From Candidatus Saccharimonadota bacterium (GTDB lineage: Bacteria > Patescibacteriota > Saccharimonadia > Saccharimonadales > Saccharimonadaceae): a stretch of 64,000 nucleotides of DNA. The stretch's first letter is position 1. Each line of letters opens with the position of its first letter. Of the stretch, positions 1 through 27,932 are shown piece after piece. Below the pieces are notes generated by a model. That model did no database searches. It was not told the origin of the DNA and saw only the letters and a program-made list of their open reading frames with translations. The position numbers and the translations under genes are program-made. The stretch is from assembly GCA_017480095.1 (NCBI GenBank), contig JAFVBG010000003.1, positions 62,001 through 126,000 on the forward strand. Reading direction: 5' to 3'.

Positions 1-854
1 TTGATAAGCTGGTCGAGTGTCATTTTGAGGGCAGCGGCCACTACTTCCAGGGCGGCTTCGGCGTTTTCGCGATTATGTGCACCGGGGATTTGCAAATTGT
101 CTAGTAACTGATCAAGCTTCTCACGATTTTCGACCAGTGGATATGGAATTAAATCACCATCGGAATATTCTGCAGTCTTCACTGAGTCGGCATTGTTGAC
201 GTAATAGATGCAGTAATCTCCTGGAACTTGGTGGCGAGCAATGTTGCTCTTGGCATTGACGTAATCGTTGAAATCGCGATGGATATCGAGGTGGTCGGGA
301 GAAATGCGAAGCACCGCGGCAACATGAGGAGATTTTTCCAAATCCCAGAGTTGGAAGCTGGACATTTCATAAACGACAAAATAGTCTGTGTCTGGTTCGG
401 CAATGATGTTATCGAGTGCCGTAATCGCTGGTGTGCCGATATTGCCGACGAGGTGGACGCGGTAGCCGAGATTTTTCAGTAAGGCGGTGGCGATACTACA
501 AGTAGTTCCCTTGCCCTTAGTACCAGTAATGCCAATGATACGATTGCGATTAACGAGATTATAGAAATATCTAGTCGAAGAAGTCCAAACTGGCTTTTCA
601 GGAATTAGGCTAGGATTTTTCAATAGCTCGAAAGCGTCCGGCTGGACGGGCGGGCGGACGGATGGGGAGCGAAAAATCACGTCGAAGCTGGACAAATCTG
701 GTAGATTATTGGCGTCAAACTTGTCAAAAACAGTTAGTTCGAGGTCTGTTGGCTCGACGTGAAGGCTTTTACTAGGGTCATCGTAAGGGTGGGTCTTAAA
801 ATAGTTTTCGATGGCTTTACCTTCTACGCCGTAGCCTAAAATCGCGATTTTCAT
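1..854 (-). CDS. murD: UDP-N-acetylmuramoylalanine--D-glutamate ligase, 3' end outside window
   Basis: MurD adds D-glutamate to UDP-MurNAc-L-Ala in cytoplasmic peptidoglycan precursor synthesis. I translated the first ~284 residues. They show an N-terminal Rossmann start (MKIAILGYGVEGKA), the ATP-binding loop GITGTKGKGTT, then GNIGTPAI, YEMSSFQLW and the HLDIHRDF...AKSNI stretch, and near the edge PGAHNRENAEAA. These match the Mur ligase central domain, and the order fits MurD rather than MurC, E or F. The C-terminal domain lies off the left edge. The start is ATG at 854, preceded on the minus strand by TACAAT and six bases, so the mRNA is probably leaderless. dnaE ends 16 bp upstream. Confidence 0.93.
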   Translation of the reverse strand, partial: MKIAILGYGVEGKAIENYFKTHPYDDPSKSLHVEPTDLELTVFDKFDANNLPDLSSFDVIFRSPSVRPPVQPDAFELLKNPSLIPEKPVWTSSTRYFYNLVNRNRIIGITGTKGKGTTCSIATALLKNLGYRVHLVGNIGTPAITALDNIIAEPDTDYFVVYEMSSFQLWDLEKSPHVAAVLRISPDHLDIHRDFNDYVNAKSNIARHQVPGDYCIYYVNNADSVKTAEYSDGDLIPYPLVENREKLDQLLDNLQIPGAHNRENAEAALEVVAAALKMTLDQLI

Positions 855-870
855 GATTCTATTGTAGCAC

Positions 871-3800
871 CTATTGGACTTTGACGCAATCTGTTCCTAG
901 TAGCTCTTCGAGTGGTTTGACGAGCTCGCTGTCGGCTTCGATGTGGAAAGGCAAACGAATCGGACGTTTTTCGCCGTTTTCTTTCAAAACGAGGATGATT
1001 TCTTGGAAGCCAGGATGTAAATCACAGAGGTGTTTAATTTCGGTCAAGACGTCGGTGTTGTTCGGGTCTTTGATTAGACAATAGAGACGTTCATGTCTGG
1101 TGTCCCTTGGAGCGGAAGCAATAGTGGAATTTCCGGCTACGCGTCCGTCCAGCCCGTCGCCACGGGTGGACGGCGCTGGTACTCGCGCTGCCGCGCTCCG
1201 TATCCCGCCGGATAATTCACTATTGCTTCCGCCACGGTTACCATTACTGACGCTCTCCTGTCTGGTTCTACTGCTCCTGAATCCGCCCCTTCCACCTCGT
1301 CCATTGTTTGGTGCCATCTTTGGTGCTGGTAGTTTTGTGCCAGTTGGCTGATAATTTGCCAACATCTCATCGGATACGACTTCGATACTTTCAGCCAGGA
1401 CTTTAACATCACTGGTAATATTACCGTCGCGGTCACGAGCGTTGACCTTGCCGGTGACTTTGATGACATTATCGACCACGAGTTTAGCGCCATACTCTTC
1501 AAATACGCTTGGGAAGACGATGATTTCCTGCTCGGAAGTCTTGCTTTCAATCTTGACAAAAGCCATTTTAGACTGAGACTTGGTGATAATACTGCGGATA
1601 TTAGTAATAATACCGCCGATGACTACTAGTTTATTGTCGTTTTCGGCAGTGACTACGGAAAAGTCGTGTGTCTGCTCCTCGAAGAAAGTATCGTATTTAT
1701 CGAGTGGGTGGGCAGAAAGGTAGAGCCCCATCAAGTCGCGTTCATTGAGTAGCATCTCCTTCTCTGGCATAGGGATTGGCGCGCGTTTAATCTCTGGCTC
1801 TGGCACTTCACCAGCACTACCAAGTAGTGCAAAAAGGTCGGTCTGGCCAGATACTTTGTCTTTCTGGATTTTAGTCCCATAAGCTTGAATTGGATCGAGA
1901 TTGAAGAGCAAGTCCGCACGGATTTGACCAGAAACTTCGGCCGGAGTCTTATTTTCGGTATCTACGCCTAAATCTTTGGCGAAACGGTCGAAAGCACCAG
2001 TCTTAATCGCTGCTTCCCAGGAGCGTTTGTTGAATTTGGTGGCGTTGACTCGTTTAGCAAAATCGCAGATGGAAGTAAACGGACCACCACGGTCACGTTC
2101 GGGGATAACTTCTTCCTCAATCAAGGCTTTACCCATGCTTTTGATGCCAGAGAGACCAAAACGGATGGTCTTTTGCCCGCCGACAATACCAAAGTCGCCG
2201 TAGGATTCATTAATGTCTGGCCCTAAAACTTTTAGCCCCATGCGCTTGCACTCGTTTATCTCAATCGCAAGGCGATCGGTCCAGCGCATATCAGAGGTCA
2301 TCAGAGCAGCCATGAAAGCGTCTGGATAGTGAGATTTGAGATAGGCTGTCCAGTAGGCGACCAGGGCGTAACACGCGGCGTGGGATTTATTGAAACAATA
2401 GTTCGCAAATTCTAGGAGCTGTTGCCAAAAAGTCTCGGCGATTTCTTCGGTCGCACCACCAACTTCCACAGCACCCTTGATGAACTTTGGCTTGAGTTCG
2501 TTCATGAGGGCGACTTTCTTTTTACCTACAGCCTTACGCAGGGTATCGGATTCACCACCGGTAAAGCCGCACCACTCACGCGAAATCTGCATGAACTGCT
2601 CCTGGTAAATCATGATGCCATAAGTGCTCTTGAGTGAGTTTTCGAGACCAGGATGGAGATAGGTAATTGGCTCTTCACCGTGCTTGCGGCGGATGAAACT
2701 CTCGATGAACTGCATAGGACCTGGGCGATAGAGGGCGACCATGGCGATAATATCATCAAAAGCGGAAGCTTTGAGATCGCGCAGATAACGTTTCATGCCG
2801 GCAGATTCTAGCTGGAAGACACCCGTAGTCTCGGCATTCTGCAATAATCTATAGGTATCTGGATCGTCAAGCGGTAGAGAGTACATATCAATATCTTCAT
2901 GATACACCTTGCGAATCATGCGTAAGGCATTATTAATCACGGAGAGGTTAGAAAGACCGAGAAAGTCCATCTTAAGCAGACCAAGCTCTTCTACCTGAGT
3001 GGATGGAAATTGAGTGGCGATTGGCCCCTTAGCCGAGACTTCCACAGGGAGGAACTTGACTAAATCATCTGGCGCAATCACCACACCACAAGCGTGTACG
3101 CCATGGGAACGGATGGTGCCTTCAAGGGTAATAGCAAGATCAATCACTTCCTTCGCGGTCGGGTTAGACTCGTATTCGCTCTTCAAGTCTGGATTGTCTT
3201 TGATGGCTTTCTTCAGCGGAACGTGATGCCCCATTTCTGGGTCTGGCACTAGCTTAGCGATACGGTCGGACTCGGCGTAAGGCACCTCTAGGACGCGCGC
3301 CACATCGCGTACGGCGGTTTTCCCCATCATTTTACCAAATGTACAGATGTTGGTAACGCGACCGTAGCCGTATTTTTGTGAACAATACTCAATCACTTCG
3401 TCGCGGCGGGTATCTTGGATGTCGGTATCAATATCTGGCATGGAGATACGGTCTGGATTCAAGAAACGCTCAAAGAGTAGGTCATATTTGAGTGGGTCTA
3501 GCTCGGTGATGCGCAGAGAATAAGCCAAGAGTGAACCAGCGGCAGAGCCACGCCCTGGGCCATAAACGATGCGCTGACGTTTGCCCCAGTTGATGAAGTC
3601 TTGGACGATTAGGAAGTAACCGTTATAACCCATCTTGTCCACCACGCCCAGCTCGTAATCAATGCGTTTTAGCACCTCATCGGAGAGTAACTTGCGGCAT
3701 TCTTCGACACTTAAATCTTTAGCTTCTTCCTCTGTCTTGCCACCATAACGGAAGGCGAGACCGCGGAAGACTAGCTTATCAAGATAGGTCTTTTCGTCTT

Positions 3801-20445: not shown

Positions 20446-20474
20446 TTGAATTTTTGTTTTGGCTGTGCTATAAT
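20446..20474 (+). promoter_or_regulatory. Promoter of the DGR target leader
   Basis: TTGAAT (20446-20451), a 17-bp spacer, and TATAAT (20469-20474). It drives the ~340-nt structured leader ahead of the variable protein gene. Confidence 0.8.
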
Positions 20475-20478
20475 GGAA

Positions 20479-20820
20479 TTACGACAACATTTTAACACAA
20501 TCGATTATTTTATTGCTGAAAAGCAGTAGCATCGGCTGTATCGTAAGCGTATAAGGCTTGGAGTCACAAGGCTCACACTAGTACTACGTTTATGATACGG
20601 TCGATTGTGAGATGTTGTCGTAAATACCTTGTGGCTCCATTCTTACGACGACTAGATTACAATCTGGAGAAAGTAGAATGGGTTCCGCGAGGGACCTGAT
20701 TTTAATCTTACTATGACTCGGCAGAAGTTGATTGCGAGCTTACAAGCTTAAAGATCAGGAGAGAGAATAATTTAATCTGTCACGAGCCCCGATCATTATC
20801 GGATGGTTGGGGTTATTTTT
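20479..20820 (+). ncRNA. Highly structured leader RNA with pseudoknot and terminator-like hairpin
   Basis: Stem P1 pairs 20479-20490 with 20612-20623 (12 bp). P2 pairs 20496-20504 with 20601-20609. P3 pairs 20536-20546 with 20590-20600, with G:U pairs. In the P3 loop, 20560-20571 (GGAGTCACAAGG) pairs with 20627-20638 (CCTTGTGGCTCC), a 12-bp pseudoknot closing outside P1. Further stems include 20639-20643/20675-20679 and a GCGA-tetraloop hairpin (20681-20696). At the 3' end AGCCCC (20785-20790) pairs with GGGGTT (20809-20814) and TATTTTT follows. An alternative hairpin CCGAT-CATT-ATCGG (20789-20802) competes with it. This suggests a cis-regulatory attenuator or a free-standing RNA. It lacks the consensus of RNase P, tmRNA, SRP or common riboswitches that I know. 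Confidence 0.65.
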
Positions 20821-20845
20821 GTGACAACAAAAGAGAGGTGTATCT

Positions 20846-23119
20846 ATGGGTCAACGCAAGAATCAAACTAAGTATCGGGACAGAGGCAGTTTCAGCGGCC
20901 TTCTCTCTCCCGTCGCTGAAACTACCTCTATACCGATACGGTTCTTGCCTTATGCAGTAGGAGTTTTTGGATTGGCATTTATCGCTAGTTGTATTACGGC
21001 AAGTATTACAACGCCAGTCCAAAACTCAGATGCGACGAGTGGATTAAACCTGAATACAAACGCAGTATCATATTATGTTAACATCGCATCCAACAATGGC
21101 AGTGGCGGCACAATTAGCAAAGACATTCAGGCGACCTATGCCGGCACGATGGGCGTGATTACTGATACTCTGAAGATTACGTCCAACACGCCAAACGGCT
21201 ACTATGTCTATCTTTCAGCGGCGAACGGACATAACCAGAATCTAACTAATACTTCCGATAGCACTTATGTCCTCGCACCAATCGACACCGAGACCTATAG
21301 CCTTTCTAATCCAGGCAACCTTTCTACGGTGAACACTTGGGGCGTGGCCGTGGCAAATACTTATAATAATGCCTACGACGCCGCATCTAGCTACACAGAT
21401 GCCACCGTCTCCCAGACCACGAAGTTTGCTCCAGTTCCAGCCTATGGCGCTGAGGAACTGCTAATCACTCGCACTGGCAGCACGGTTGTTCCTGGCGCTG
21501 AGAGTGATACTTCCCTGGCCAATGTTGATACTATCCCAGTCTATTACGGCTATTATGCTAACTCTGCTCTGCCATCCGGTACTTATGCGGACACGGTGCT
21601 CTACACAGCTTACGCTGAGGCGACCGACCAGAGTGGTGGTATTGCGACCTACACGGGTGATGTAAACTACAAGACCGGTGGCACGGCGACCTTTACGACC
21701 TCGCTCTACACCGACCGCGAAGTAGCAGTTGGCGATGTGGAATTGACTGTGGGTGGAATTGCGGCTACCGTAACTGGTGTCTCCAAGGTGAATGCTGGTG
21801 TCAACGATTCCGTAGTGGTGACTGCTACTCTCCCAGCTCAAGCCAAGCCAGGCAATTATGATGCCGTCTTGACCATCTCGAAGTTTGGACATGCTTCGAC
21901 TACTTCGGTAGCCTATGACACAGACGGAATTGTAATTTCCTCTGGGACTTATGCCGGCACTTACAAAACGATGCAGAGCATGACCTCTAATATCTGTAAT
22001 GCTTGGGCAACCACTCCAGACGCCTTTACTTCTGGTAGTGGCCCAGAATATAAGTATGGTTCCAGTCTAAACGTTGCCGAAAGCACCATCGTCAGCGATC
22101 CAGCTTCCAACTGGTCTAGCGTGACAGGTGTAGCGGGCGTCACCAGCGGTTCTGCTGTCGCTAACATCAATACCGATGTGCCAGAAACCTATCTCCGTGA
22201 TTCTCGCGACGGTAACTATTATCGCATCCGCAAACTAGCAGACGGTAACTGCTGGATGACGGAGAACCTTCGCCTCGTCTTCTCAACAGACGGCTCGAAT
22301 ACCATCGGTCAAGTCAACGCAGATGGCACTATTACTGCCACCGAAGAAACTATCAACGAGAACAACTCTAACGTTGGTGCAAGCGCCGTAGGTGGCTCTA
22401 GTGCTTCAAATTTCAACGCCACCAGTTTCGCCAGCTCGATTGCTTACACCGAAACCTCTGCTTCCCACTCGATTTGGGGTAAAGAAACTGGCCAGAGACA
22501 CAGTACTGCTACTGGTAGCGTAGATAATAACGAAGCCAACTCCGCTATCTCCATGGAATACAGCCGCAGTTATTATAATCCAGATACTAGAAGCAATGCA
22601 AACTTTATCAACGATGGTGATGAACAGACTGTGGGTACTTACTACAACTGGAAGACTGCTACCGCCGGTACTGGCACAACCGCCAACGCTAGTACGACTG
22701 ACTCTATTTGTCCAAAAGGTTGGCAACTCCCGGTGAATGCCGATGCCGGTAAATCTTGGAACAATCTTATCTTCAACACCTATGGTGGTGGCAAGGGCTA
22801 TGATGCAACGAACAATCCAGATGGCATCACGCAAGGCAATGCTGGTTCTGGTCAGGCTTACTACCAGACTGTAAATGGCGCTCATATCTACGCCATGAGC
22901 CAAGCCATGCGCCGCGCGCCGCTTTCAGTGCCTTTCTCCGGCTACTACAACTACTACTCTGGTGGTGTCGCCGTTGTCGGCAGCGGTGGCTACTTCTGGT
23001 CTTCTGCTTCCGCTTCCGCGCCTAGCGCTCACGGCCTCAACTTCTACAGCTACTACCTGTACCCGCAGAATAGCAATTATAAGGGCGTCGGATTCACAGT
23101 CCGCTGCGTGGCTCAGTAG
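20846..23119 (+). CDS. DGR variable target: membrane-anchored surface protein with C-type-lectin-like variable tail
   Basis: 757 residues. A short cytoplasmic N-terminus and one membrane segment (~32-55, FLPYAVGVFGLAFIASC) precede a long Thr/Ser/Asn-rich extracellular region. From ~445 on it resembles the FISUMP module, with DSRDGNYYRIRKLADG, NCWMTENLRL and ICPKGWQLP. The last 66 residues (from ~692) are the variable repeat ending in FTVRCVAQ, on a C-lectin-type scaffold as in other DGR targets. It is probably a surface receptor or adhesin whose binding face is diversified. The RBS GAGAGGTG precedes ATG at 20846. Codons ~10-31 form a long hairpin. Confidence 0.9.
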   Translation: MGQRKNQTKYRDRGSFSGLLSPVAETTSIPIRFLPYAVGVFGLAFIASCITASITTPVQNSDATSGLNLNTNAVSYYVNIASNNGSGGTISKDIQATYAGTMGVITDTLKITSNTPNGYYVYLSAANGHNQNLTNTSDSTYVLAPIDTETYSLSNPGNLSTVNTWGVAVANTYNNAYDAASSYTDATVSQTTKFAPVPAYGAEELLITRTGSTVVPGAESDTSLANVDTIPVYYGYYANSALPSGTYADTVLYTAYAEATDQSGGIATYTGDVNYKTGGTATFTTSLYTDREVAVGDVELTVGGIAATVTGVSKVNAGVNDSVVVTATLPAQAKPGNYDAVLTISKFGHASTTSVAYDTDGIVISSGTYAGTYKTMQSMTSNICNAWATTPDAFTSGSGPEYKYGSSLNVAESTIVSDPASNWSSVTGVAGVTSGSAVANINTDVPETYLRDSRDGNYYRIRKLADGNCWMTENLRLVFSTDGSNTIGQVNADGTITATEETINENNSNVGASAVGGSSASNFNATSFASSIAYTETSASHSIWGKETGQRHSTATGSVDNNEANSAISMEYSRSYYNPDTRSNANFINDGDEQTVGTYYNWKTATAGTGTTANASTTDSICPKGWQLPVNADAGKSWNNLIFNTYGGGKGYDATNNPDGITQGNAGSGQAYYQTVNGAHIYAMSQAMRRAPLSVPFSGYYNYYSGGVAVVGSGGYFWSSASASAPSAHGLNFYSYYLYPQNSNYKGVGFTVRCVAQ
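20872..20939 (+). repeat. Long imperfect inverted repeat in the first codons of the DGR target
   Basis: The arms 20872-20897 and 20914-20939 match at about 22 of 26 positions (core CAGTTTCAGCG with CGCTGAAACT) around a 16-nt spacer. It begins 27 bases into the gene and could fold in the mRNA just behind the start codon. Confidence 0.75.
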
Positions 23120-23137
23120 TGTAGGTGTGTCTGCCAC
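22919..23137 (+). repeat. DGR variable repeat (VR)
   Basis: A 219-bp stretch homologous to TR1 (25876-26094, minus strand). Seventeen positions differ, and each is A in TR1: nine A-to-T and eight A-to-G. The last changed bases are at 23087-23088. The following stretch up to 23137, which includes the stop codon and 18 bases beyond it, is identical and would contain the initiation-of-mutagenic-homing region. Confidence 0.96.
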
Positions 23138-23214
23138 TGGGTTCCCTTTGGCACGGCACTGAATAGCTTCAGGCTAGTATAAGGTATAAAGTAAAAGGAA
23201 AGATAAAATGATTT

Positions 23215-23273
23215 GTCTGGCGAGCACCCTCGCCAGACCCCTCCAAGGCGGGCTTGCCCGCCGCTGGAGGGGG
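23215..23273 (+). repeat. Two tandem GC-rich hairpins downstream of VR
   Basis: Hairpin 1 is a perfect 10-bp stem, GTCTGGCGAG (23215-23224) with CTCGCCAGAC (23229-23238) and a CACC loop. Hairpin 2 pairs CCCCTCCA (23238-23245) with TGGAGGGG (23265-23272) and GGCGGGC with GCCCGCC inside. No T-run follows on either strand. A GC-rich hairpin with a four-base loop downstream of VR is known in the Bordetella phage DGR as a target-recognition element. Confidence 0.75.
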
Positions 23274-23290
23274 AGGATTAAAAAAGAAAA

Positions 23291-24442
23291 ATGACAACCA
23301 AAACCAATAACCTCTCATCAACTACAGCCGCCCAAAAAGCGGCTGTAGCGCGTACCAAAAATACAACTGCGCCGCAAGCGGTCAAGAATACAATGATCGA
23401 AACTAGACCACTCAAAAAACTGTCGAAACCTCGGCGGACTAATAAGACCTCTGCTTCTAACACTCCCGAAGAGGTGGAGCGCAAGAAAGAGGATGCGCGA
23501 GAACAGCTAAAGCATTTCAAAGAAGTTAAGGCCGAGGCCTACGAGCTGGAACGTCAGAATGTCAACAAGATTATTGCTTTCGATTCTGGTGAGCCATGGT
23601 ACAAAATCGGCTTCAAGTCGAACCTAATCTACGAATTTTATGTTCTGCCCCACCTGAAAGAGGCGCATTTCAAACCGCGACAAGATAGCGACCATTACAC
23701 TTACTCTAAGACTGGCGTAACTAGCATCAGTGATATTATAGTCTTTGCGGAGGAGTTGAAGAAGCGTGGTGCCATCATTCCAGAGAGTCTAGAGAAGTAT
23801 TTTGACGGTAGTCTGCCGTCGGATGCACGTCCGCATGGTGAAGAGCGTCAATCGATTTATGTCTTTGAGTTTAAGGGTCTAACCAGAGCGAACATCGACA
23901 CTTTCTTCAAGGCGAAGATGAAGACGATGGAAGATCTCAATGAACTAGTTTTACCTTATTATATTCCCCAAGAACTATATGCCGATTTGCACTCACTGGC
24001 CCAGATGACTTGTGATATGCTTTTGCGCTTACCAACCGCGGTGCGCAATGTTTATGGCGAGATTCTGGCTAATCTAACTGTCGCTATGCTACGCGATATT
24101 AATGCGACTTGTAATGGTTATGGCGCCGAGGGTAGTCTTTCACGAGTTCTAAACTTAATATTATATCGTTGTGCCGAGATACAGGAGGTTGTGCGGATAC
24201 TGCTAGATTCTAACCATCTTCGTTTTGGCGCTTGCCAAGTATTACTGCGTCTCACGCTAAAGGTACAACAAGATGCTAAGGAAGAACTGGCGCATATCGA
24301 GAAAAAGGGTAATCCCGTGGTGGAGGCCATCAAAAAGGCGAAGGATTTTCCAAAATTGAAAGGTGTGAAGCTAGATGACATTATCGGCGAGCCAAAAGCG
24401 GGCAGTGCGGGGATTATCAAAACAAGGTCGCCACAACAATGA
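23291..24442 (+). CDS. avd: DGR accessory protein, Avd-like helical bundle with long N-terminal extension
   Basis: 383 residues. The C-terminal part (~215-345) is helical (LPTAVRNVYGEILANLTVAM, then LSRVLNLILYRCAEIQEVV) and fits the Avd four-helix bundle that binds RT and template RNA. The first ~60 residues are basic and low-complexity. Residues ~80-190 form an unfamiliar α/β-looking domain (NKIIAFDSGEPWYKIGF), with weak similarity to the first domain of MutS. The usual Avd is ~125 residues, so this is about three times longer. The stop TGA overlaps the RT start (ATGA), so translation is coupled. The RBS GGAGG lies ~14 bp upstream, just after hairpin 2. Confidence 0.75.
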   Translation: MTTKTNNLSSTTAAQKAAVARTKNTTAPQAVKNTMIETRPLKKLSKPRRTNKTSASNTPEEVERKKEDAREQLKHFKEVKAEAYELERQNVNKIIAFDSGEPWYKIGFKSNLIYEFYVLPHLKEAHFKPRQDSDHYTYSKTGVTSISDIIVFAEELKKRGAIIPESLEKYFDGSLPSDARPHGEERQSIYVFEFKGLTRANIDTFFKAKMKTMEDLNELVLPYYIPQELYADLHSLAQMTCDMLLRLPTAVRNVYGEILANLTVAMLRDINATCNGYGAEGSLSRVLNLILYRCAEIQEVVRILLDSNHLRFGACQVLLRLTLKVQQDAKEELAHIEKKGNPVVEAIKKAKDFPKLKGVKLDDIIGEPKAGSAGIIKTRSPQQ

Positions 24443-25803
24443 TTTATAGGCCAGATGATAGCCTAGTGACGGCGGAAGATTTGAACCTGGCCACAGAACT
24501 TCCCGACGAACTGACCTTGCCGACCAACGAAGATTTAGAAAAACTTGCCACGGTGATACATGGCGACTTCTTTGATGAAAATCCCGTGGACTACCGACCG
24601 ATGAAGCCCTATCTCGACCCAAGGACTCCTTTCCCTTACACGGAAAAAGCGGAAAGATTTTTTGCGGCGACTACGCAACGCGTGTTTACGCATGATCGTC
24701 CGTCTTATTCTGAGCTGGTCTGCGCATTACACAAGGCATACGTCGAGGCGCGTCGAGCGAAACGTGGGACACTCGACGAAATTCGCTTTGAGGCAAACTT
24801 GTTTCAAAACTTAGAAAATCTGGCGAAGACGATTATGTCGCGGACTTATGAACCGAGTCGGGGCATTGCTTTTATTGTGAACCGCCCAGTGATACGCGAG
24901 ATTTTTGCTGCACCTTTTCGCGATCGTGTAGTCCATCATCTACTTTTTGACCTCTGTTCGGAATGGTGGGATAGGAGATTTATCGGCAATTCGTTTGCTT
25001 GTAGAATTGGTAAAGGTACGATTTATGGTTGGAAACATATCCAGCGTGATATGCGCACTTGTTCTAATCTTGGTAAAATCCCTGCCCTCGTACAGAAAAA
25101 TGACCTTTCGGGGTATTTTATGAGTTTGGATCGAAGACTATTGTTTCAGCGAGTATGCTGGGGCTTAGAGCAACAATTCGCCCAGGCGCCGTGGCTCTAT
25201 AGTTTGACGAAGTATCTCTGGCGGAAGATTATTTTTGACGACCCTACGCGTAATGTGCAGATACGAGGTTCGGCTAACGATTGGAAAAAGCTCCCACGCA
25301 ACAAGAGTTTGTTTTTTCAGAAGCCTGGGGTCGGGATTGTAATCGGAAATCTGACATCGCAACTACTATCTAACATTTTCTTAGATCAGCTCGACCATTA
25401 TGTGCGGTTTGAGTTGGGGTATAGATTTTATGGGCGGTATGTGGATGACTTTTATATTGTAGTGACAGAAGAGGAACGAGATCAACTAGCGCGAGACATG
25501 AAACAAATTGATGCCTATCTCAAATCGATTGGGTTAAAATTACATCCGAAGAAGTGCTATAACCAAGACGTCAAACACGGCATCGACTTTTTAGGAGCGA
25601 GAGTATATCTGCAACATGTGCAGCCTGGGCCTAGGGTAGTGAAAAACTTTCGCCAGGCCGTGCATAATATTGCTAGCGGTAAGACTGATGACCTAGACGT
25701 GCTGACGAGCTATGATGGATTGATTAGCCACATGCAAGCGCAACGGATGATTGGGCAGACTTATCGATCTGTGGGTTGGGAATATGGAGAACTGACGATT
25801 TAG
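24439..25803 (+). CDS. DGR reverse transcriptase
   Basis: 454 residues. The fingers/palm motifs are in order: RDRVVHHLLFDLCSEWW near 160, NDLSGYFMSLDRR near 220 (first catalytic Asp), GIVIGNLTSQ near 298 and RYVDDFYIVV near 332 (catalytic DD). The SQ in motif 4 distinguishes DGR RTs from group II intron and retron RTs. The C-terminal thumb includes KLHPKKCYNQ. There is no maturase or nuclease domain. It reads template RNA and produces adenine-mutagenised cDNA for homing into VR. It overlaps the accessory gene by four bases. Confidence 0.96.
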   Translation: MIYRPDDSLVTAEDLNLATELPDELTLPTNEDLEKLATVIHGDFFDENPVDYRPMKPYLDPRTPFPYTEKAERFFAATTQRVFTHDRPSYSELVCALHKAYVEARRAKRGTLDEIRFEANLFQNLENLAKTIMSRTYEPSRGIAFIVNRPVIREIFAAPFRDRVVHHLLFDLCSEWWDRRFIGNSFACRIGKGTIYGWKHIQRDMRTCSNLGKIPALVQKNDLSGYFMSLDRRLLFQRVCWGLEQQFAQAPWLYSLTKYLWRKIIFDDPTRNVQIRGSANDWKKLPRNKSLFFQKPGVGIVIGNLTSQLLSNIFLDQLDHYVRFELGYRFYGRYVDDFYIVVTEEERDQLARDMKQIDAYLKSIGLKLHPKKCYNQDVKHGIDFLGARVYLQHVQPGPRVVKNFRQAVHNIASGKTDDLDVLTSYDGLISHMQAQRMIGQTYRSVGWEYGELTI

Positions 25804-25826
25804 GGCTCGATGGGTTCAGTCGTAAA

Positions 25827-25854
25827 CTGGCTAGCACCTTTTTGGTCTAGCCAG
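25827..25854. terminator. Hairpin between the RT and TR1
   Basis: CTGGCTAG (25827-25834) pairs with CTAGCCAG (25847-25854), and ACC with GGT around TTTTT. It could end both the RT mRNA and the convergent template RNA. The T-run is weak on either side. Confidence 0.6.
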
Positions 25855-25875
25855 GACTATTGAAGGGGGAACGCT

Positions 25876-26094
25876 GTGGCAGACACACCTACACTACTGA
25901 GCCACGCAGCGGACTGTGAATCCGTTGCCCTTATAATTGCTATTCTGCGGGTTCAGGTTGTTGCTGTTGAAGTTGAGGTTGTGAGCGTTAGGCGCGGAAG
26001 CGGAAGTAGAAGACCAGAAGTTGCCATTGCTGCCGACATTGGCGACACCACCAGAGTTGTAGTTGTAGTTGCCGGAGAAAGGCACTGAAAGCGG
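25876..26094 (-). repeat. DGR template repeat 1 (TR1)
   Basis: 219 bp, minus strand. It is identical to VR except at 17 adenines. Conceptual translation is rich in Asn (AAC/AAT) at exactly the diversified codons, the usual TR design. An open frame crosses it, but it has no RBS and is best read as non-coding template RNA. It lies opposite to and convergent with the RT, not between accessory gene and RT on the same strand as in the Bordetella phage element. Confidence 0.95.
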
Positions 26095-26180
26095 ACGATT
26101 TTTTGGGTATCTGTTTTTTGCGGCACGCTTGACTTTTTGGCTCTAAGACCCACCTCGGAAGATTTTTGAAGGGGAACGCT

Positions 26181-26395
26181 GTGGCAGACACACCTACACT
26201 ACTGTGCTACGCACCGGACAGTTAACCCGTTGCCCTTAGAATTGTTGTTCTGCGGGTTCAGGTTGTTGCTGTTGAAGTTGAGGTTGTAAGCGTTACGCGA
26301 GGAATTGGAAGTAGAAGACCAGAAGTCGCCTTCGCTGCCGACATTGACGACATCACCAGCGTAGTGCCGGTAGTTGCCGGAGAAAGGCACTGAAA
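26181..26395 (-). repeat. Second template repeat (TR2)
   Basis: About 215 bp, in tandem with TR1 at a ~305-bp period. The flanking GGGGAACGCTGTGGCAGAC segment is also repeated. It is Asn-rich in its second half like TR1. Differences from TR1 and VR include many non-adenine changes, so VR did not come from it. The 3' end reads LTVRCVAQ rather than FTVRCVAQ. Probably a template for another variable gene outside the window, or a decaying duplicate. Confidence 0.8.
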
Positions 26396-26459
26396 TCACG
26401 AGGATTTTTGACCTTTTTACAGCTTTTTGTCGTATGTATAGATGCACACCTTAGAGTTT

Positions 26460-26712
26460 TTAGTTTCAGAGGATGCGAACTAGACAAAATCGACCGCGAA
26501 AGTTCTAAACGCGCACGAGTACATTTGATTATTGACCGCCTTGGAGGGCGGTCGCTAGCTCCGTAAAACTAGGGCATAAATTTATCTCTTGTGGATAGGG
26601 TTATAACTATGGAATACCCCATTCATCAAAAGAAGTACTCGGGGGTTCCCTTTGTTATAGAGTAATGTTGGGGAAGGAAGACCAATTCCATTCCCCTAAC
26701 ATAATTATTATA
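26460..26712 (-). ncRNA. Structured stretch upstream of the template repeats, with minus-strand promoter
   Basis: No gene lies in 25804-26746 apart from TR1 and TR2. On the minus strand an extended -10 (TGATATAAT, box at 26707-26712) faces the TRs. Downstream are hairpins 26666-26703 (~15 bp with two bulges), 26602-26660 (TATAAC/GTTATA, GGAA/TTCC, CCCC/GGGG in order) and 26534-26553 (GACCGCC/GGCGGTC). I infer one long RNA carrying both templates, though transcription is not shown. Confidence 0.45.
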
Positions 26713-26746
26713 TCATGCTTTTGGGCTGGTATTCGTCTAAATATTC

Positions 26747-27838
26747 TCACCTGTCCCAATCGAATCCTTCGCCGAAGTGGCCGTATTCGGCGGTCTGCTC
26801 GTAAATCGGGCGGAGCAGGTCGAGCGTCTTGATGATTCCTCGCGGAGTTAAGTCATAACGCTCGGCGGGGATTTCTTCGGCAATACCGTCGATGATGACA
26901 GTGCGCTCTAGCGGCTCGGCGTAACCAATAGCATAGGCCAGGCGGACGTAAACTTCGTGTGCTTCACGTTCGCGGAGGTAGTCCACGGCGATGCGGCGAG
27001 CGATATAAGCGGCAGAACGATCCACCTTTGACGGGTCTTTACCAGAGAAAGCCCCGCCGCCGACTGGGATGCTAGGACCATAATTATCTACGGCCAGCTT
27101 GCGCCCGGTGAGACCAGAGTCGGCATCAAAGCCGCCGAGATTCCAGTCGCCAGCTGGGTTGATATGTAGTGCAATCGGCGTCTTAGACTCGGTATTGACG
27201 ACATCCTCATCTTTCTGGGCGAGCAAATCTTCGCCGTCAGCGCTGGTGGCTAGTTGCTCTTGGACGAGCCAAGCCAGAATACGGTTGCGCAAATCGCCTT
27301 GCGAGACATTTTGGAAGCTAGCGACGATAGAATCAATATCACGGCCATGCAAGGTAACTTGAGTTTTACCATCATAAGGGTATTTTTTGTAAATAAACTT
27401 GTTGAGATTGCGTGATAAGACTACTTCGCGCGGCAGTAACTCTGGCGTCTCGTCGGTAGCGTAGCCAATCATAATTCCCTGGTCGCCAGCGCCGCCAGTA
27501 TCGACGCCTTGGGCGATCTCTGGACTCTGGGAGACAACCGAAAGTACGACCTCGACTTGATTGCCAGCGATGCGATGGACGATTTTCTCAATATTGACGT
27601 TCTTGGCGCGCGAAGTGATTTCGGCGGCGACGAAGACTTTGCCGTGCCCACCAGCGACATCAACGGCGACGCGAGCCTTTTCGTCTTCGGCAAGGTGCGC
27701 GTCGAGAATCGCATCAGAGATGCGGTCACAGAGCTTGTCGGGATGTTTAGGCGAGACGGATTCGGCGGTGCGATAGCCGTCCAAGTTACGAAGTGGGTTT
27801 TTGACAATAGTGTTTTTGACAGTATTAGAAGTTGTCAT
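26747..27838 (-). CDS. metK: S-adenosylmethionine synthetase
   Basis: 363 residues, a little shorter than the typical ~385. It makes SAM from methionine and ATP. The conserved TAESVSPKHPDKLCDRISDA start, the GGAGDQGIMIGYAT loop and the GGGAFSGKDPSKVDRSAAY loop are present. RBS GAAAGGAAAG precedes ATG at 27838. A SAM riboswitch occupies the 5' leader, so expression should fall when SAM is abundant. It is divergent from the GT4 gene. Confidence 0.97.
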   Translation of the reverse strand: MTTSNTVKNTIVKNPLRNLDGYRTAESVSPKHPDKLCDRISDAILDAHLAEDEKARVAVDVAGGHGKVFVAAEITSRAKNVNIEKIVHRIAGNQVEVVLSVVSQSPEIAQGVDTGGAGDQGIMIGYATDETPELLPREVVLSRNLNKFIYKKYPYDGKTQVTLHGRDIDSIVASFQNVSQGDLRNRILAWLVQEQLATSADGEDLLAQKDEDVVNTESKTPIALHINPAGDWNLGGFDADSGLTGRKLAVDNYGPSIPVGGGAFSGKDPSKVDRSAAYIARRIAVDYLREREAHEVYVRLAYAIGYAEPLERTVIIDGIAEEIPAERYDLTPRGIIKTLDLLRPIYEQTAEYGHFGEGFDWDR

Positions 27839-27847
27839 ATCTTTCCT

Positions 27848-27932
27848 TTCTTGGCTGGATTTACCACCTTGCGATTGTAGGTTGGTAGCAGGTCAAAGGG
27901 CCAGTCCCTCGCTGCTTCTTGATATTAGTTGT
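27848..27932 (-). promoter_or_regulatory. SAM-I type riboswitch (S-box) in the metK leader
   Basis: On the minus strand the core reads ATCAAGA, then GAGGGACTGGCCC, TTTGACC, CAACCT, AAGGTGGTAAATCC. These are the S-box blocks in order: kink-turn/P2 with GCAG/CTGC and GGG/CCC stems, P3 with CCAACCT/AGGTGG, and the P4-P1 junction. The metK RBS lies within ~12 bases of the aptamer with no terminator between, so control is probably translational. Promoter TTGTAA, 17 bp, TAAACT lies just upstream. Confidence 0.9.

Follow-up and report, generated by a model that had tools for sequence, protein, structure and literature searches.

We estimate a probability of about 0.85 that the locus described here is a complete, recently active diversity-generating retroelement (DGR), in which the target, accessory and reverse transcriptase (RT) genes form a row on the plus strand, a separate RNA from the minus strand supplies the template, and the template repeat TR1 is copied into the variable repeat (VR) of the target gene. 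The locus lies in a 64,000-nt stretch of a Candidatus Saccharimonadota contig (the window; Table 1). Target, accessory gene and RT are all on the plus strand, and the template alone is on the minus strand, beyond the RT.

Table 1. Features of the DGR locus, with positions in the window
Feature	Position	Strand	Basis or remark
Likely promoter of the target-accessory-RT gene row, extended -10 GGCTGTGCTATAATGG	20461-20476	+	Consensus match only
Highly structured 5′ leader of the target mRNA	20480-20845	+	Folding prediction
Target gene, 757-aa surface-type protein; C-terminal FISUMP (Fib_succ_major) domain holding the VR	20846-23119	+	ORF, domain matches
Variable repeat (VR)	22919-23137	+	3′ end of target gene plus 18 nt past the stop
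Hairpin/cruciform candidate, 10-bp stem, 4-nt loop CACC	23215-23238	+	Downstream of VR
Accessory protein, 383 aa	23291-24442	+	AlphaFold2 model, fold search
DGR reverse transcriptase, 454 aa	24439-25803	+	ORF, RVT_1 (E 4.1e-11), motifs
Inverted repeat CTGGCTAG/CTAGCCAG	25827-25854	.	Between RT stop and TR1 3′ end; no T-run
Template repeat TR1, source of the present VR	25876-26094	-	VR/TR1 alignment
Template repeat TR2, tandem diverged copy, 305-bp period	26181-26399	-	Repeat comparison
Predicted structured 5′ leader of the template RNA	26400-26706	-	Folding prediction
Candidate template-RNA promoter, extended -10 TGATATAAT	26707-26715	-	Just past metK end; TATAAT placement in relatives
metK	26747-27838	-	ORF; about 30 bp separate its end from the candidate -10 box
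SAM riboswitch of metK	27834-27928		RNA-family search

Adenine-Specific Differences Between VR and TR1

The VR and TR1, themselves on opposite strands, align without gaps over 219 bp with 17 mismatches, every one of them at an adenine of TR1 (9 A to T and 8 A to G); TR1 contains 51 A in 219 positions, giving p of about 1.6e-12 for 17 out of 17 on A. The mismatches alter 13 codons of a 66-codon frame, each change being nonsynonymous, and 12 of the 13 are AAY (Asn) codons. Our alignment agrees with the initial annotation on the coordinates of both repeats, their length, and the 17 differences confined to TR1 adenines; and since A-only differences between TR1 and VR point to past mutagenic retrohoming, its claim that this process has acted on the target gene is borne out. 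The locus was also correctly described as a complete DGR: a target, an Avd-type accessory protein, a DGR RT, and a TR/VR pair are all present.

One could argue that the element is a relic, which formerly diversified the VR and is now inactive, so that the VR would be a frozen variant: the data come from a single genome, a target of TR2 has been lost or was never present, and C is absent among the 17 changes. However, the three ORFs are intact, TR1 keeps all of its A-rich codons, and the VR equals TR1 at every non-A position over the 219 bp, a match that ordinary drift would break; moreover, the contig carries, at another position, a second DGR of identical layout, which is likewise A-biased (21 of its 23 TR/VR mismatches are at A). 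We regard a relic as quite unlikely.

TR2 differs from the VR at 40 positions, only 23 of them at A, and from TR1 at 28 positions, without A bias; it is therefore not the source of the present VR. No second VR matching TR2 was found in the 97.9%-complete genome, and the comparison of TR1 and TR2 gave no signal of purifying selection on TR2 (pN/pS 0.94). Judged from the repeat comparison, TR2 appears to be a tandem duplicate template that has kept both homing ends and is unused for the present VR. A literature search of limited reach returned no useful paper on two-template DGRs or on Saccharibacteria DGRs. The tandem arrangement of two cassettes that differ in part but share their ends exactly, with differences from each other spread over all bases, might also recall silent-locus antigenic variation, with host recombination converting the gene from silent cassettes TR1 and TR2 without reverse transcription. 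Gene conversion yields mosaics of existing sequence, whereas the VR contains zero TR2-specific bases and its differences from TR1 are all new letters at adenines; with a DGR RT and an Avd fold also present, this explanation is extremely improbable.

Target, Accessory and RT Genes

Residues 467-755 of the target match PF09603 (E 4.7e-11), the protein also matches TIGR02145 (E 2.6e-13), and its N-terminus reads as a hydrophobic stretch. As for the C-type lectin fold expected of a DGR target at the VR, the structure model (pLDDT 63) gave just four fold matches with Z > 2; these include the C-terminal domain of Lcl at Z 6.6, as well as NKR-P1 and langerin at Z 4-5. Upstream of the gene, the likely promoter GGCTGTGCTATAATGG is an exact pattern match at C5:82461-82476, and the leader, taken as 371 nt, is predicted to fold with an MFE of -135.7 (z -8.1; 0 of 100 shuffles as low), matching no Rfam family at gathering score. 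Sites resembling this promoter, GTGNTATAATGG, occur elsewhere in the genome.

Stem-loops of phage DGRs have a GRNA loop consensus and lie 4-34 bp from the VR (PMC3240598); the hairpin candidate found here is 77 bp from the VR, outside that range, and its loop does not fit the consensus (PMC3240598). Among 73 related loci, a stem of at least 7 bp with a 4-nt loop is found within 110 nt of the VR in 11, versus 0.2 expected, and after the TR in one.

In the AlphaFold2 model of the accessory protein (pLDDT 83), an N-terminal domain (about residues 59-222) is fused to an Avd-type four-helix bundle (223-339). The fold search, which covered the four-helix part, matched residues 227-339 to the S23 family (2gsc, Z 16.9) and to the Avd of BPP-1 (4dwl_D; Z 13.8, rmsd 2.0 over 107 residues); helical bundles inflate Z, and the Avd assignment rests on the top matches all being S23 or Avd. 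We conclude that the C-terminus (223-339) has, as modeled, the Avd/S23 four-helix fold. The homologous protein of the second DGR has a weak sequence match to the PHROG “Avd protein of DGR” (E 0.059). A likeness by eye of the N-terminal domain to MutS-I was discarded, having no Pfam match.

The start codon of the RT gene and the stop codon of the accessory gene overlap, by 4 bp. The RT carries IGNLTSQ and YVDD, matching the DGR motifs (I/V/L)GxxxSQ and YxDD, and the best PDB match of the RT-family profile is the BPP-1 DGR RT (8ub7, E 9.4e-50).

Layout of the Locus and Its Relatives

Similar to BPP-1 (mtd-avd-TR-brt), the locus combines a DGR RT, an Avd four-helix partner, A-specific transfer from TR to VR, a VR at the 3′ end of the target, and a stem-loop downstream of the VR. 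In BPP-1, however, the TR is between avd and brt on the same strand, while here it follows the RT and occupies the opposite strand; the BPP-1 TR is 134 bp long, as compared with about 219 bp; and the accessory protein carries an extra N-terminal domain relative to BPP-1 Avd. Two further claims of the initial annotation stand. Both templates lie beyond the RT and face it, TR1 and TR2 being on the minus strand past the RT stop (25803); and the RT mRNA and template RNA, on opposite strands, would be distinct and partly convergent transcripts, meeting at about 25804-25875. The independent control of the two RNAs that the annotation drew from this is a possibility.

The template lies just past the RT on the opposite strand in 73 of the 77 related loci with a detectable TR/VR pair, and in 62 of these 73 convergent-TR loci the TR and VR are on opposite strands, as here. 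Across the 73 distinct loci, 1550 of 1663 mismatches are at A, which makes up 26% of the TR; these loci were picked by A bias, and the count is a description rather than a test. The layout is clustered on the RT tree, with all 8 canonical pairs outside the clade; among other Patescibacteria, 14 of 24 TR/VR pairs are canonical and one is convergent. The convergent-template layout is standard in a Saccharimonadota RT clade, not a local oddity, and is mostly absent from DGRs of other lineages.

These counts also bear on a possible assembly artefact, in which the segment flanked by the VR and TR1 inverted repeats would have been turned around, the real order being TR-accessory-RT and then the target. 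TR and VR do form inverted repeats of 228 bp, and exactly the flipped order is found in two related loci (L133 and L160); but VR and TR1 are identical over at most 49 consecutive bp, short relative to current assembly word sizes, and 62 distinct RT loci repeat the order seen here, so that an artefact is very improbable.

That RT and TR can be on different strands has been known since 2012 (PMC3521204): in the “group 4 inverted” DGRs of Shewanella, Vibrio and Photobacterium, RT and TR are on different strands, and TR and VR on the same one (PMC3521204). The present locus resembles group 4 of Schillinger 2012 in that the RT and TR strands differ, so the RT mRNA and template RNA are never one molecule. 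In group 4, however, the RT alone is inverted and TR, VR and target stay together, whereas here the TR alone is opposite to VR, target, accessory gene and RT; group 4 is defined by the RT strand against that of TR, VR and target, and here VR and target share the RT strand. Eleven related loci are ordered RT >, < TR < VR, matching group 4. A TR opposite to the VR is a rarer feature than RT and TR on different strands. TR and VR can occupy opposite strands because homing acts in trans, and BPP-1 homing functions with an inverted target (PMC3240598).

It is known from the 122 DGR cassette patterns of Yan 2019 (PMC6642488) and from the Pseudogulbenkiania DGR, with VRs on both strands (PMC3521204), that the order and orientation of cassettes differ and group on the RT tree. 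The Patescibacteria-restricted DGR clade 2 of Roux 2021 (PMC8144416) is likewise one of cell-encoded DGRs in candidate-phyla bacteria; its main text does not discuss cassette orientation (PMC8144416). In literature of limited coverage, we found no description of a TR convergent with the RT and opposite to the VR as a fixed lineage layout; a prior description is possible.

The Template RNA

It is plausible, from sequence patterns, that the template has its own separate promoter. The candidate TGATATAAT was not listed by the sigma-70 scan because no -35 box matches; of 72 related loci, 50 have TATAAT upstream of the TR on the TR strand, and 26 have it on the opposite one (p 5e-5). Alternatively, the template is promoterless and TR RNA arises where transcription of metK runs on past the gene, its supply following SAM-riboswitch-controlled metK expression. 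The genes would fit: metK is on the same strand, has the riboswitch, and ends close to the candidate -10 box, which has no recognizable -35 box, and terminator prediction placed no T-run terminator in the interval from metK to TR2. We consider read-through unlikely, given that TATAAT boxes on the TR strand upstream of the TR are a conserved feature of the related loci and that, in the second DGR, a TATAAT of its own precedes a hairpin.

Downstream of the putative template promoter, the region 26395-26712 of the minus strand is predicted to fold at -85.6 (z -3.4; 0 of 100 shuffles as low). Leader stems covary in two related subclades of 5 and 3 sequences, with two-sided changes in 15 of 33 pairs and in 7 of 10 pairs; 0 to 1 of 500 shuffles scored as high. 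The covariance model R1 found only the eight loci of its own subclade plus weak matches in L068 (E 0.022) and L151 (E 0.11), and had no match to the leader at 26400-26706, which also matched no Rfam family. Folding energy alone was rejected as a leader signature: over all 72 loci, leaders were no lower than control flanks and could not be separated from them.

The inverted repeat between RT and TR1, which terminator calling did not flag, may possibly be an end point for one or both convergent RNAs, as far as its sequence suggests. Canonical terminators between TR and RT were found in 9 of 73 loci on the TR side and 4 of 73 on the RT side, too few for intrinsic terminators to be a general feature.

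In BPP-1, a structured spacer 3′ of the TR binds RT-Avd and primes the cDNA. That spacer is long, whereas the gap between TR and RT stop is about 63 bp here (median 41 bp in the 73 loci); and the conserved structure in relatives of the present locus precedes the TR, unlike the BPP-1 spacer. Extra synonymous conservation at the RT 3′ end, which would be a sign that its antisense serves as a stand-in spacer, was looked for in the last 40 RT codons and not found (0.45 vs. 0.44 identical codons at conserved residues, in 73 non-independent pairs). We tentatively suggest, as a possibility short of an even chance, that this lineage makes its template as a permuted DGR RNA, with its own promoter, a conserved structured leader 5′ of the TR that takes over the recruiting or priming role of the BPP-1 3′ spacer, and the TR at its 3′ end, running antisense into the RT gene.

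In the proposed mechanism, the target ending in the VR, the accessory protein ending in the Avd fold, and the RT are encoded one after another on the plus strand. A minus-strand RNA, probably starting from a promoter near 26707-26715, would run through the leader, TR2 and TR1 toward the RT 3′ end and supply the template. The RT and its Avd-type partner would copy TR1 into cDNA with errors opposite adenines; and, considering DGR biology and the A-only differences, this cDNA would replace the VR at its conserved 3′ end and change Asn codons of the exposed face of the target.

Implications

Among the known systems of programmed protein hypervariation in bacteria, DGRs are the principal one. Components of the locus are candidates for building a split mutagenesis tool that acts in trans, and the locus also provides a natural test of which RNA part the RT needs, as there is almost no room for a post-TR spacer here; in two subclades, by contrast, the pre-TR region is a covarying RNA. 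If the permuted-RNA reading is true, template dose, and even convergent interference with the RT, could be set independently of the RT operon. Within one RT clade of host-dependent Saccharibacteria, almost all detected DGRs carry the template on the strand opposite to the RT and, in most cases, opposite to the VR as well; such a clade-wide opposite template would show that the template RNA of DGRs stands on its own and is controlled separately.

DGR Components of the Locus

Re-alignment of the VR with TR1 gave a 219-bp ungapped match with 17 mismatches, all of them at adenines of TR1 (nine A-to-T and eight A-to-G), just as the initial annotation had described. Adenine occupies 51 of the 219 TR1 positions, and the probability that all 17 mismatches would fall on it is ∼1.6e-12. 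The mismatches alter 13 of 66 codons, 12 of them asparagine codons, and every change replaces an amino acid.

The second repeat, TR2, differs from the VR at 40 positions (only 23 at adenine) and from TR1 at 28 positions with no base preference, a pattern that rules it out as the source of the present VR. A genome-wide match search found no plausible target for TR2, the other matches being the genome's second DGR and weak FISUMP paralogues. FISUMP-domain matches lie elsewhere in the genome (C2:49328-49828, C5:305212-305661, and C4:22810-22956, by contig); no template was linked to them in the searches made. Tandem templates exist but are rare; two other loci, L119 (2449-2524 and 2779-3034) and L115 (9160-9357 and 9613-9810), carry an additional TR-like repeat on the strand of the TR.

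Coordinates of DGR features and their neighbors in the window
Feature	Position	Strand	Description
Target 5′ leader	20480-20850	+	371 nt; extremely structured (z -8.1); starts directly past the target promoter
Target gene	20846-23119	+	757 aa; FISUMP domain at the end, containing the VR
VR	22919-23137	+	
Stem	23215-23238		10 bp, 4-nt loop; 77 bp past the VR
Accessory gene	23291-24442	+	383 aa
RT	24439-25803	+	IGNLTSQ and YVDD motifs
TR1	25876-26094	-	
TR2	26181-26399	-	305 bp from TR1
Candidate template promoter	26707-26715	-	TGATATAAT; directly past metK
SAM riboswitch	27834-27928	-	upstream of metK, the gene directly before the candidate template promoter

The second DGR of this 813-kb genome (C5:1-3010, equal to 1-3010 of locus L008) repeats the window layout, running from a target end with VR (+) through the gene for a 392-aa accessory protein (+) and the RT (+) to TR (-). 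Its RT is 62% identical to the window RT, and 21 of its 23 mismatches are at TR adenines. Its target is truncated by the contig end, and at many loci (L008, L049, L058, L064, L065, L070, L077, L079, and L082) the contig ends within a few hundred bases upstream of the VR; such breaks possibly reflect a VR that varied within the populations sampled, or repeated target genes.

Distribution of the Convergent Layout

We surveyed RT loci of the same family together with 80 named loci, mostly from Candidatus Saccharibacteria MAGs (goat, sheep, deer, and yak guts), and detected TR/VR pairs by a strand-neutral self-comparison (adenine-bias threshold 1e-5). Pairs were detected for 89 of 116 distinct RTs: 62 have the window layout (VR(+), accessory gene, RT, TR(-)), 11 have the RT followed by TR(-) and VR(-), six a downstream TR(+), and two an upstream TR(+) with a downstream VR(-); the remaining eight have the canonical layout, and all eight lie outside the clade containing the window. 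Inside this clade 73 of 77 pairs are convergent (the TR beyond the RT on the opposite strand), as are all five additional loci from the same genus, vs. 1 of 24 pairs from other Patescibacteria, mostly of other families or genera (14 of the 24 are canonical). Over the 73 convergent loci, which were picked for adenine bias, 1550 of 1663 mismatches are at adenine; a median of only 41 bp separates the RT stop from the TR.

An RT and TR on different strands were reported in 2012 for three marine gammaproteobacterial DGRs (group 4; PMC3521204), in which TR and VR lie together. The same authors considered a TR opposite to the VR possible in theory and mentioned a single DGR whose VRs occupy both strands. 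Yan 2019 lists 122 cassette patterns (PMC6642488). We found no description of the present layout as the standard of a lineage in the literature searched, whose coverage is incomplete (Wu 2018 and Paul 2017 lie outside it).

Target, Accessory, and RT Proteins

The FISUMP domain of the target matches PF09603 (E 4.7e-11) and TIGR02145 (E 2.6e-13). A structure model of the last 330 residues, of middling quality (pLDDT 63), has few structural matches, mainly C-type-lectin-like domains (Z 4 to 7), and is at most suggestive of such a fold. The target 5′ leader has no Rfam match; in the genus, several further DGR targets have leaders that are just as structured (z down to -10.5; the 5′ regions compared were those of L048, L040, L150, L121, and L103), and it may be an undescribed leader RNA. 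Another surface-type gene, at about 1500-2090 of locus L227, has a similar start, TATAATGG followed by a stem closed by GCAACAA/TTGTTGC.

The accessory protein has no Pfam family. Its AlphaFold2 model (pLDDT 83) has a C-terminal four-helix bundle that resembles both the Avd of Bordetella phage BPP-1 (4dwl_D; Z 13.8, 107 residues at rmsd 2.0) and S23 proteins. A weak match (E 0.059) links the homologous protein of the second DGR to the PHROG entry “Avd protein of DGR”. The N-terminal domain (placed at about residues 59-222 and, by window positions 23361-23907, at residues 24-205) carries clade-conserved K80, N90, S110, D132, and D134. The best PDB match of the RT-family profile is the BPP-1 DGR RT (8ub7, E 9.4e-50).

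Homing End and Inverted Repeats

Stems like the one past the VR occur there in 11 of 73 relatives vs. 0.2 expected, and past the TR in one of 73. This enrichment agrees with the DGR hairpin of PMC3240598, although the window hairpin differs from the phage consensus in its loop and its distance from the VR. BPP-1 homing tolerates an inverted target (PMC3240598), so nothing in the mechanism speaks against a TR and VR that face opposite ways.

TR and VR form inverted repeats flanking the accessory-RT block. In L133 and L160, whose tree neighbors have the usual order, this block is flipped relative to TR and VR; this is in line with recombination between the inverted repeats, though misassembly in those two loci could also explain it. 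The longest exact run shared by VR and TR in the window is only 49 bp, so the gene order here is probably correct.

Transcription of the Template

The layout observed in the initial annotation stands, and its interpretation, separate RT and template RNAs that would allow independent control, holds in part: judged from strand, the TR is excluded from the RT transcript. In 50 of 72 loci TATAAT lies upstream of the TR on the TR strand; on the other strand it does so in 26 of 72 (p 5e-5). Within the interval 150-260 nt upstream, the counts are 28 and 7 loci, respectively (p 4e-5). The 318 nt starting at the candidate template promoter have a folding z of -3.4. In two subclades the stretch between promoter and TR shows covariation: two-sided changes were found in 15 of 33 leader pairs in one (five sequences) and in 7 of 10 pairs in the other (three sequences; a stem in which a bulged A is conserved), and the signal was lost when partners were slid. 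However, a covariance model built from the first subclade did not reach the window leader, and leader folding energy across all loci was no lower than in control flanks; a structured template leader is therefore supported in relatives and plausible here. A spacer RNA overlapping the RT 3′-end should leave extra synonymous conservation there; none was seen. About 70 nt upstream of the TR in L141 and L149, the template leader contains CCCAT..CCGCTATTTTC..ATGGG..AAATAGCGG, which resembles an H-type pseudoknot. One hypothesis is that the template leader acts in place of the 3′ spacer described for BPP-1 (PMC12875486; PMC8867640).
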